From Desulfobacterales bacterium (GTDB lineage: Bacteria > Desulfobacterota > Desulfobulbia > Desulfobulbales > BM004): a stretch of DNA of 61,133 nt. Of this stretch, positions 33,818 through 46,667 are shown piece by piece. The notes below the pieces were generated by a model, which saw only the letters and a list, made by a program, of their open reading frames with translations, was not told where the DNA came from and ran no database searches. The position numbers and the translations under genes were made by a program. Positions within the stretch are counted from its first letter, which is position 1. Each line of letters starts with the position of its first letter. The stretch is from the NCBI GenBank assembly GCA_021647905.1, contig JAKITW010000008.1, positions 1 to 61,133 of the forward strand, in the 5' to 3' direction.

Positions 33818-34342
33818 CTATTTGGTGCGCGGAGACCCGACCAACCGCTCGACCAGCCAGCCGTTTGCCAGTGAGAAGAGGATGATATAGAGCGACAGAA
33901 TCACGGTGTAGCGCAGGCCGAAATAGTAGATCAGCACCGGTATAAAAGGAATCTTGACGTTGCGGTTGTAGAGGATCACCGCCAGAAAGGCCTGCCGGGC
34001 CCCGTGGCGGCGGAACTCGCTCAGCATCGGGTAGAGCATATAGGGCGGGCCGGAGACAAAGATTCCGCCGACCACTGCGTAGAGCCAGCCCTGCCAGCCC
34101 GAGTCCCGGCCCAGGTGCCTGCGGATCCAGGCCGGATCGAGGAGCAGGTTGATCAAGAACAACATCACAAAGACCAGGCCGAGAATCGGGATGATCTTGC
34201 CCGCCATCTGGCCGAACTCGACCAGGGCCCGGCCTGCCAGCTCCGGTTTGATCGCACCGGTTACTCCGTAGATGGCGAGCATGGCCAGAAAGAACTTAGG
34301 CCCGCTGCCAAGGCCCTTTTTTTTTTCAGCCGGCCCGGTCAT
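33818..34342 (-). CDS. Permease half 2 (DUF318/YraQ-like)
   Basis: 174 aa with about four hydrophobic helices (FFLAMLAIYGVTGAIKPEL first). The segment GGIFVSGPPYMLYPMLSEFRR with its central Gly-Pro pair, and ILYNRNVKIPFIPVLIYYFG, resemble the C-terminal half of COG0701 permeases. The start (MTGPAEKKKGLG) overlaps the stop of the upstream half by an ATGA. The two halves together equal one full-length permease. The substrate is unknown. Confidence 0.72.
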   Translation of the reverse strand: MTGPAEKKKGLGSGPKFFLAMLAIYGVTGAIKPELAGRALVEFGQMAGKIIPILGLVFVMLFLINLLLDPAWIRRHLGRDSGWQGWLYAVVGGIFVSGPPYMLYPMLSEFRRHGARQAFLAVILYNRNVKIPFIPVLIYYFGLRYTVILSLYIILFSLANGWLVERLVGSPRTK

Positions 34343-34749
34343 GGCAGCAGACCGATGGTGGCCACCGTGGCCACGGCCACCAGAATCGCAAAGATGAAAT
34401 TGACCCCGTTGCGGATCAGCGCGAACCGGCGGCCGAGAAAGGATGCCTCCAGGGGCAGCATCACCAGCCCCACCGTGGTCCAGGCCATGACAAAGGCGGT
34501 CACCGCCAGCAGGCTCACCCCCTTGTCCAGCAACTCGCCGCCAGCCACATAACTGGTAATGGGAATCCCGAAGGAGATGCTGCCTGCTGCTGCCCCGATC
34601 AGCGGGTCGGCCAGGTAGTTGCCGGTGAACCATTGCGAGTAATGGCGGGCCAGGATCGGGTCGACCAGGCTGATCAGCAGCAGCACCCCGGCCAGGATCG
34701 GCAGGGCGGTCTTGAATACCGCCAGGGTTGCAAGGAGTGGTTTCTTCAT
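34339..34749 (-). CDS. Permease half 1 (DUF318/YraQ-like)
   Basis: 136 aa, four helices; AAAGSISFGIPITSYVAGGELL and VMAWTTVGLVMLPLEA match the N-terminal half of COG0701 permeases. The repeat symmetry of the two genes (Gly-Pro turn followed by a helix) fits a transporter assembled from two chains. Divergent from tetR, so probably under its control. Weak ribosome site. Confidence 0.72.
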   Translation of the reverse strand: MKKPLLATLAVFKTALPILAGVLLLISLVDPILARHYSQWFTGNYLADPLIGAAAGSISFGIPITSYVAGGELLDKGVSLLAVTAFVMAWTTVGLVMLPLEASFLGRRFALIRNGVNFIFAILVAVATVATIGLLP

Positions 34750-34837: not shown

Positions 34838-34884
34838 TTGACAACCGCCGCCACTGGCCCTATATTAGAATGAACGTTCGTTCT
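34838..34884 (+). promoter_or_regulatory. tetR promoter with overlapping operator
   Basis: TTGACA (34838-34843), 17 bp, TATATT (34861-34866), followed immediately by agaatgaacgttcgttct (34867-34884), an 18-bp palindrome with 16 matching positions. This is the expected layout for autorepression by TetR and control of the divergent permease genes. A shorter palindrome GAACGCTCGTTC follows the tetR stop at 35527-35538. Confidence 0.8.
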
Positions 34885-34921
34885 AGTGATAGGAACATGC
34901 ATAACGTTGCAAGGAGTGACC

Positions 34922-35509
34922 ATGGGTTCGGATGCAGCAAAAAAAAGTTCCCAGGACACCAGGAGCCTGACCCTGGAGACCGCCCTGGGTTTATTCACCG
35001 GCAAGGGATATTTCAATACCTCGATGCAGGATATCCGCCGGGAGGCCCGGGTGAGCATCGGTTCCATCTATCACCACTTCAAGTCCAAGGAGGCCCTGGC
35101 CAAGGCCCTGTACCAGGATCTGCTCGACCGGATGGAACAGATGATGGCCGAGATCATGGACCGCCACCAATCGATCCATGATCGGGCCCGGGCGGTGATC
35201 ACCACCCTGTTTGACATGGTGGAGACCTCGCCCCAGGCAGTGCAGTTTATCCTCTATGCCAAGCACCGGGAGTTTCTGCCCTGTGAAAAGCCGGTCTGCG
35301 CCTCCCGGCCCTTTGAGATGATGCGGGACATGGTTGCCAAGGGAATAGAACGCGGCGAGATATGTGATCTTGACCCGACAGTGGCCACGGCCGCCCTGTT
35401 CGGCGGGGCGATCCGTTTGATCCACCTAAAACTGGACGGCGCGGTGCAGGGCCCCCTGGATCGTTTTCTCGACCAGACCTGGGAGTGCGCCTGGTCATCG
35501 GTGACCTGA
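34922..35509 (+). CDS. TetR-family transcriptional regulator
   Basis: 195 aa. N-terminal helix-turn-helix: FTGKGYFNTSMQDIRREARV then SIGSIYHHFKSKEALAKAL, the standard TetR DNA-binding pattern. The C-terminal ligand domain is unclassified (VQFILYAKHREFLP, CASRPFEMMRDM). Start at 34922 with AAGGAGTGACC ribosome site. Divergent from the permease pair; the operator lies in its promoter. The ligand is unknown. Confidence 0.9.
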   Translation: MGSDAAKKSSQDTRSLTLETALGLFTGKGYFNTSMQDIRREARVSIGSIYHHFKSKEALAKALYQDLLDRMEQMMAEIMDRHQSIHDRARAVITTLFDMVETSPQAVQFILYAKHREFLPCEKPVCASRPFEMMRDMVAKGIERGEICDLDPTVATAALFGGAIRLIHLKLDGAVQGPLDRFLDQTWECAWSSVT

Positions 35510-35567
35510 TTTTCAGTCACCCGGCCGAACGCTCGTTCTAGAAGCAGAGGGTCTGCTTGCCAAGGGC

Positions 35568-35842
35568 GTAAGGTTTCGGTAAACCCCGTACGTTTGAGGT
35601 TGGACCGGGAAAGGGGTTTTCTTATACCGAACGGTGTAGCGGACCCTGAGCCGCAGCCGTGACGGCAAAAGCGGAAATTGAAACAACTTCCGCATGATAT
35701 GCTTATGGCTTTCGAGTCGCCGTTGCGGCGAAGCGAGTTCCTGCTTGATAGCCTGTTTATGAACAGCCGGCCCTTCTCAATGGAGCGGCCGTTGGTAGAA
35801 GAAGACCCCTTTCCCGACAGGAGGGGGTTACTGAATGTTTAC
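35568..35842 (+). mobile_element. 275-bp element R2, copy a
   Basis: Begins GTAAGGTTTCGGTAA and ends in a partly inverted copy (GTTAC...GTTTAC). The flanks are direct 8-bp duplications CCAAGGGC at 35560-35567 and 35843-35850, evidence of transposition. About 96 percent identical to copy b at 46.4 kb by eye. A short open frame (KQLPHDMLMAFESPLRRSE) is kept in both copies, but no transposase is present. It lies between tetR and the selenoprotein gene. Confidence 0.8.
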
Positions 35843-35895
35843 CCAAGGGCGGCCTTGAAAATATGAGTAAATTTGTGAGTAAAGGAGGTTAAGCC

Positions 35896-36204
35896 ATGTT
35901 GGAAATAACGGAACAGGCGGCAGAAAAGCTGCAGGAGTATCTCCGCGCCAACCGGATCGAATCCGCGGTGCGGGTGGCCTACAAGGGTGGCGGCTGATCC
36001 GGCCCCAGTCTCAATCTGGCTCTGGATGAGCCGAAAAAAGAAGACAAGGTCTATGAGATCGATGAAATCACCTTTGTGGTGGACAACGGTCTGTTGAATC
36101 GCTGCGGATCGATCAAGGTCGATTATATTGCCGACAGCCCATACCCGGGGTTTGCGCTTATTCCGGCCATCCCCCTGGGCTCTGGCAACGCCTGCGCAAT
36201 CTAA
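35896..36204 (+). CDS. HesB/IscA-like selenoprotein (in-frame UGA read as Sec)
   Basis: 102 aa if TGA at 35995-35997 is read as selenocysteine. ATG at 35896 follows AAAGGAGG. The N-terminus LEITEQAAEKLQEYLRANRI matches IscA/HesB iron-sulfur proteins. The UGA falls exactly where IscA has the first of its three Cys, in YKGGGUSGPSLNLAL. The second half (VYEIDEITFVVDNGLLNRCG, ending GSGNACAI) keeps the fold but has a single Cys at the C-terminus. HesB-like selenoproteins are known in Desulfobacterota. A short stem (CCAG with CUGG) just after the UGA is a candidate SECIS. A conventional reading would give two fragments with no ribosome site for the second. Confidence 0.85.
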
Positions 36205-36237: not shown

Positions 36238-36453
36238 ATGCCTATTTATGAATTTCGTTGCAATGACTGCAACACCCTTTTTGAAAAAATCATCTTTGGC
36301 TCTGCGGACCGGGAAAAGGTGGTCTGCGGCAAATGCGGCAGCAACAAGGTGAAAAAGACCATTTCCGCCACCAGCTACCGGCTTGCAGCGGGCGGAAGTT
36401 CCACCCCGTTCGGCACCGGCCCCGGCGGCTGCGGTTCCGGCGGTTTTTCCTGA
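36238..36453 (+). CDS. FmdB-family zinc-ribbon protein
   Basis: 71 aa. MPIYEFRCNDCNTLFEKI plus VCGKCGSNKVKK provide two CxxC pairs of a zinc ribbon, as in FmdB proteins (a regulatory name from formamidase operons, function unclear). A Gly/Ser-rich tail follows. It lies 33 bp after the selenoprotein gene and shares its strand, so they are likely cotranscribed. Confidence 0.88.
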   Translation: MPIYEFRCNDCNTLFEKIIFGSADREKVVCGKCGSNKVKKTISATSYRLAAGGSSTPFGTGPGGCGSGGFS

Positions 36454-46301: not shown

Positions 46302-46391
46302 TCAGCCCCCCTTGCCAACCATCTCAACCCCCTGGCCGATGACCCTGATCCCCTGGTCCGGGAAATCGTGGCCAACTTCCTTGCCGCCCGC
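46302..46391 (+). pseudogene. Possible 3' gene remnant cut by element R2b
   Basis: Protein-like stretch ANHLNPLADDPDPLVREIV then ANFLAAR, ending at the left edge of R2b. Removing one C in the C-run near 46305 would join it to SQEALIS upstream in frame. The repeated DP...VREI pattern resembles a HEAT-like repeat. Neither a start nor an end is identifiable. It could be an intact gene's relic disrupted by the element. Confidence 0.35.
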
Positions 46392-46667
46392 GTAAGGTTT
46401 CGGTAAACCCCGTACGTTTGAGGTTTGACCGGGAAAGGGGTTTTCTTATAGCGAACGGTGTAGCGGACCCTGAGCCGTAGCCGTGACGGCAAAAGCGGAA
46501 TTTGAAACAACTTCGGCATGATATGCTTATGGCTTCCGAATCGCCGTTGCGGCGAAGCGAGTTCCTGCTTGATAGCCTGTTTATGAACAGCCGGCCCTTC
46601 TCAATGGAGCGGCCGTTGGTAGAAGAAGACCCCTTTCCCGACAGGAGGGGGTTTACTGGATGCTTAC
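46392..46667 (+). mobile_element. 275-bp element R2, copy b
   Basis: Nearly identical to copy a at 35.6 kb, with left end GTAAGGTTTCGGTAAACCCC and right end that inverts to GTAAGCATCCAGTAAACCCC. The two ends share GTAAG and GTAAACCCC around a 6-base variable core. No direct duplication is visible around this copy. Located between amt and the PilZ gene in the same orientation as copy a. Confidence 0.75.

Follow-up and report, generated by a model that had tools for sequence, protein, structure and literature searches.

An in-frame TGA in a HesB/IscA-like gene

Does the TGA that interrupts a small HesB/IscA-like frame of a Desulfobacterales bacterium end the gene, or is it read through as selenocysteine (Sec)? 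The frame lies in a 61,133-nucleotide stretch of DNA, hereafter the window. A preliminary description, made from the letters alone, held that it is well initiated, spans 102 codons around the TGA and places the TGA exactly where IscA has a cluster-binding Cys. The features concerned are the following.

35883..35888, + strand: Shine-Dalgarno AGGAGG, 7 nt before the ATG, assigned from sequence
35896..36204, + strand: hesB/iscA-like gene of the IscA_HesB_Se family, predicted selenoprotein of 102 aa with Sec34
35995..35997, + strand: in-frame UGA, codon 34, predicted Sec codon at the IscA Cys35 position
36018..36032, + strand: apical hairpin of a putative bacterial SECIS, GGCTC-TGGAT-GAGCC, with fixed synonymous sites

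These points of the preliminary description were confirmed. The frame starts with ATG and ends with TAA at 36202-36204, giving 102 aa once the TGA is counted as a residue, and residue 34 aligns with Cys35 of Escherichia coli IscA ('rtsgCsgm'; 1r94/1s98; E ~1e-4) as well as with the Cys of Aquifex IscA 1nwb (E 2e-7). The TGA falls within a UxGP motif, here USGPS, UxGP being the motif of HesB-like selenoproteins (PMC13188914). Openness past the TGA, taken alone, is weak evidence for read-through; 5.8% of base shuffles were likewise open after it.

With Sec written as Cys, the product scored 115.7 bits on the IscA_HesB_Se model NF038090 (cut-off 85), and 51.9 bits, under the cut-off of 66.35, on TIGR01911 HesB_rel_seleno, a related model of the same wider family. 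It was also under cut-off on IscA (39.1 bits), ErpA (33.3 bits) and SufA (29.6 bits). The expectation that annotation pipelines would call the gene a truncated pseudogene was too strong, given that an NCBIfam model covers exactly this family. The AlphaFold model of the product (mean pLDDT 89.8; 19 aligned sequences) was closest to IscA with [2Fe-2S] (Foldseek E 6.7e-7) and to SufA structures. Its tail has Cys100 only, and the C-terminal C-x-C ligand pair of canonical IscA/ErpA/SufA is absent. The single C-terminal Cys had been described correctly, while Cys70, kept in 18/19 aligned family members, had been overlooked.

A synonymously constrained hairpin 3' of the TGA

The bacterial SECIS is a stem-loop immediately 3' of the UGA (PMC9312934), with a small apical loop that includes a guanosine (PMC1088965). 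The putative SECIS hairpin begins 23 nt after the T of the UGA and has a G near the 5' side of its loop; its sequence at 36018-36032 is the sole exact copy within the window. GGCTC-N5-GAG[C/T]C was present in all 33 distinct TGA sequences (33/33). Across the distinct TGA genes, codons +8 to +11 after Sec were GCT (36/36), CTG (36/36), GAT (35/36) and GAG (36/36), against background frequencies within their own synonymous sets, in the rest of the same genes, of 0.07, 0.47, 0.67 and 0.45, respectively. Conserved residues flanking these four codons vary in codon, and each of the 4/4 Cys-form hesB genes examined carried at least one change within codons +8 to +11. The stem is nearly invariant and offers no compensatory changes, and the structure thus rests on synonymous constraint, not covariation. 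Such behaviour, frozen in TGA forms and altered in Cys forms, is as would be expected of a bacterial SECIS, and the preliminary description's suggestion to predict a SECIS after the UGA yielded a SECIS-like, synonymously constrained hairpin.

Sec machinery and decoding of the UGA

The window genome assembly comprises 2.73 Mb in 118 contigs (98.4% complete, 1.3% contamination) and, given this assembly, the Sec genes probably belong to the source organism. We identified selA on contig C18 (SelA match of 620 bits), one full-length selB on C48 (354 bits), selD on C61 (350 bits; with its own in-frame TGA, a Sec codon, in a U-A-A-K (UxxK) motif), and a canonical tRNA-Sec on C12 with UCA anticodon, G1:C72, G73 and CCA. 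A candidate second SelB on C6 was judged to be EF-Tu from its 397-aa frame, partial coverage and EF-G-sized neighbouring frame. With selA, selB, selD and tRNA-Sec all present, the objection that the genome might lack Sec machinery, raised in the preliminary description, falls away. Because the canonical Sec pathway is complete, Sec is by far the likelier residue at the UGA.

SerRS, SelA and SelD would produce Sec-tRNA(Sec), and SelB, bound to the hairpin that closely follows the UGA, would deliver Sec-tRNA(Sec) to this codon. Translation would then pass the UGA and continue to the TAA, yielding a 102-aa IscA-fold protein in which Sec34 replaces the first cluster-binding Cys. Sec34 together with Cys100, and perhaps Cys70, are putative ligands of a metal or Fe-S cluster, or Sec34 could serve as a reactive selenol. 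HesB itself probably either binds one of these or works through that selenol, an A-type Fe-S/metal carrier role being the best inference.

The UGA might instead be read partly or wholly as Cys by an opal selC*-type tRNA-Cys, giving a Cys34 protein by dual decoding, which we regard as quite unlikely. A second tRNA-Sec-like gene lies at 757-849 of C61 in the window genome (G000:C61:757-849; L024:757-849), with a UCA anticodon (ARAGORN), an 8-bp acceptor, A1:U72, U73 before CCA and a 4-bp T stem with a bulged A. It thus has all the opal selC* tRNA-Cys features given in a review (PMC7609411), including the structural ones (8/4, bulged A, A1:U72, U73, UCA), and natural Cys forms of HesB exist. On C61 this selC* sits between a Cys-form hesB and the Sec-type selD. 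Near-identical copies were found in genomes G216 (99%) and G217 (94%), where the end of a rhodanese-like gene (named from the G216 sequence) precedes selC* and a SelB-like gene, ~30% identical to the window genome's SelB, comes next. At the C61 locus, only the tail of the rhodanese-like gene is left and selD follows, with no SelB-like neighbour. The window genome differs from the described Desulfobacterales selC* arrangement, with selB* downstream and a CysRS* without anticodon-binding domain (PMC7609411).

Against dual decoding, the genome also encodes SelA, SelD and the canonical tRNA-Sec, we found only a single full SelB, and no selB* stands beside selC*, unlike in G216 and G217. The genome has two cysteinyl-tRNA synthetases, a separate cysS on C115 and a fusion on C54; no CysRS* without anticodon-binding domain was found in it, and the fused second CysRS keeps CysS_C. 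It is rather unlikely that Sec-tRNA(Sec) and a selC*-type Cys-tRNA(Cys), retained in the absence of a dedicated selB*, compete at the UGA, such that residue 34 of HesB and other selenoproteins would switch between Sec and Cys with selenium supply.

The C54 fusion (L118:433-2904) joins a PLP-dependent cysteine synthase-like domain to a complete CysRS (PALP, tRNA-synt_1e, DALR_2, CysS_C). A literature search for cysteine synthase-CysRS fusions together with selenoproteins returned nothing.

Distribution, lineage and selection

Relatives of hesB were carried by 233 of the 258 genomes (~90%) of the source organism's class and, among the matches listed from these genomes, nearly all had exactly one in-frame TGA. 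The window genome itself holds three family members: the window gene (TGA), one on C91 (TGA) and one on C61 (Cys). A syntenic orthologue in genome G011 is 60% identical along its full length and keeps the TGA, and dN/dS was ~0.28 before the TGA, 0.30 after it and 0.21 beyond the SECIS region. The frame past the TGA, which had been noted as conserved-looking, is indeed conserved in the orthologue, with similar dN/dS on both sides. This conservation of frame and TGA is strong evidence for a functional gene.

Selection also bears on whether the UGA is a regulated stop, in which translation usually yields a 33-aa peptide or the message is terminated, read-through serving only as a signal of selenium status. 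UGA-SECIS read-through is generally incomplete, and a value of 30-40% in vivo is given in PMC4513850 for the system of that study; but purifying selection downstream of the UGA is as strong as upstream, and the downstream part holds most of the fold plus Cys100, leaving a regulated stop highly improbable. It is hardly credible that the TGA is a decayed or miscalled Cys codon (TGC/TGT). The stop does lie inside a small gene, with a 5.8% chance of openness after it, but the TGA is shared by the orthologue (60% identical) and by nearly all relatives, selection is equal on either side of it and the hairpin is frozen, which together rule out a pseudogene or sequencing error; the full Sec machinery stands against them as well, and the miscalled TGC allowed for in the preliminary description is, with the TGA so widely shared, excluded for practical purposes.

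Sec machinery, constrained hairpin and conserved TGA together support the initial proposal of a selenocysteine HesB/IscA-like protein. Judged from sequence, the window hesB is very probably (probability about 0.93) a functional HesB-like (IscA/A-type carrier) selenoprotein gene whose UGA is read as Sec.

In a maximum-likelihood tree, the window and G011 genes grouped together, separate from every other sequence (support 99/97). A lineage profile gave 198 bits for these two genes and at most 129 for all others in the 258 genomes, having been built from the window and G011 sequences themselves and hence being biased towards both. The profile search found no third lineage member among the 258 genomes of the class. 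A wider contig scan for the lineage returned one locus, in the MAG RIFOXYD12_FULL_57_12, which we took to be the same genome as G011 or a very near one because the two encode identical hesB products. In the window/G011 lineage, G-x-A-C-x-I replaces the Cys-rich tail of the relatives and Cys70 is retained.

The tetR-hesB-fmdB locus

The gene is flanked by a putative regulator, a zinc-ribbon gene and two palindromes, and a repeat lies in its leader.

34872..34883, + strand: palindrome GAACGTTCGTTC before tetR, putative TetR operator
34886..35509, + strand: TetR-family regulator gene (PF00440), syntenic with hesB; the start may be ATG 34922
35527..35538, + strand: palindrome GAACGCTCGTTC between tetR and hesB, putative TetR operator
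35568..35842, + strand: 275-bp MITE-like multicopy repeat between the operator-like site and hesB
36238..36453, + strand: FmdB-type zinc-ribbon gene (TIGR02605, Zn_ribbon_8), probably co-transcribed with hesB

A tetR orthologue, 69% identical, adjoins hesB in the compared loci L068/L072, and the G011 locus has the same gene order (ARMT1-like phosphatase, tetR, hesB, fmdB and a CxxCxxCC protein). The palindrome GAACGNNCGTTC had 2 matches in the 61-kb window versus 0.06 expected and, among 125 loci compared, occurred only in those covering the tetR-hesB region; in the orthologous G011 locus, the same motif stands in the tetR-hesB spacer, almost as far from tetR as in the window. The palindrome is likely a TetR operator controlling tetR and hesB-fmdB. 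Synteny and palindromes suggest that the adjacent TetR repressor probably controls hesB, with the FmdB zinc-ribbon gene co-expressed. A sigma-70 promoter scan found none near hesB.

On the minus strand at 33818-34749, the window has two overlapping half-length membrane-permease-like frames with weak ArsP_1 matches below cut-off. They and tetR are oriented divergently on either side of the 34872 palindrome; in the G011 locus, no such frames separate ARMT1 from tetR.

A MITE-like repeat upstream of hesB

The leader upstream of hesB folds strongly (z -4.6) and matched no Rfam family. We identified it as a MITE-like repeat on account of at least 40 copies in the window genome and exact duplications in 19/27. 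The copies are 95-98% identical to one another and end in GTAAGGTTTCGGTAA.../...TTACTGAATGTTTAC; exact target-site duplications, mostly of 8 bp, accompanied 19 of the 27 copies examined. The copy before hesB is flanked by the 8-bp duplication CCAAGGGC at 35560-35567 and 35843-35850, and a second copy lies in the window at 46391-46667. The orthologous tetR-hesB spacer in G011 is ~90 nt long and without the repeat, and no copy turned up in 11 other genomes of the family. Given the lack of an Rfam family, the at least 40 copies and the target-site duplications, we rejected a riboswitch or known RNA as the identity of the leader.

A copy also precedes the hesB-selC*-selD locus on C61 (L024:1-246). 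After it comes CCAAGGGA, which differs little from the 8-base CCAAGGGC of the window copy. This near-match, despite hesB proteins only ~46% identical, may reflect chance, target preference or an old duplication.

Comparison with known systems

A plain stop-codon rule would have cut this probable selenoprotein in two, whereas reading the TGA as Sec recovers it. It also points to a rare HesB-like lineage with a different ligand set (Sec34, Cys70 and Cys100), which is useful for finding out on which residues the family truly depends. Judging by the tetR-hesB-fmdB locus, the system may be inducible, and the locus offers a way to approach the signal. With a selC*-type tRNA-Cys gene next to hesB(Cys) and selD, competition between Sec and Cys at the UGA can be put to the test.

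The window hesB adds a member to an already established selenoprotein family; the family itself is not new. HesB-like selenoproteins are a published family, described in 2006 or earlier (PMC1794560), and were already among the known selenoproteins in 2005 (PMC1088965). The HesB-like selenoprotein of Methanococcus maripaludis was identified via mutagenesis and 75Se labelling, and nitrogen fixation was not impaired in its disruption mutant (PMC11097638).

The IscA/SufA/ErpA A-type Fe-S carriers (PF01521) share the fold and the position of the first ligand, whereas the window HesB is without their C-terminal C-G-C pair and is predicted to have Sec in place of Cys. The Cys-form HesB paralogue of the same genome (G000:C61:247-588) is a family member too (NF038090, 99.6 bits) and ~46% identical to the window HesB, but has Cys in N-G-C-G-G-P-S, has lost the SECIS codons, has a Cys-rich tail and adjoins selC* and selD. 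Closest are the HesB-like selenoproteins (NF038090, TIGR01911; PMC1794560, PMC13188914), with which the window HesB has in common its length, an IscA-like fold, a predicted Sec in a GG-U-x-G-P-S motif at the IscA Cys35 position, a putative SECIS directly 3' and occurrence in Deltaproteobacteria. Unlike these other members, the window HesB lineage is divergent, and its tail reads G-N-A-C-A-I, with one Cys, in place of a Cys-rich tail such as GGGCSSSSCGSSCG.
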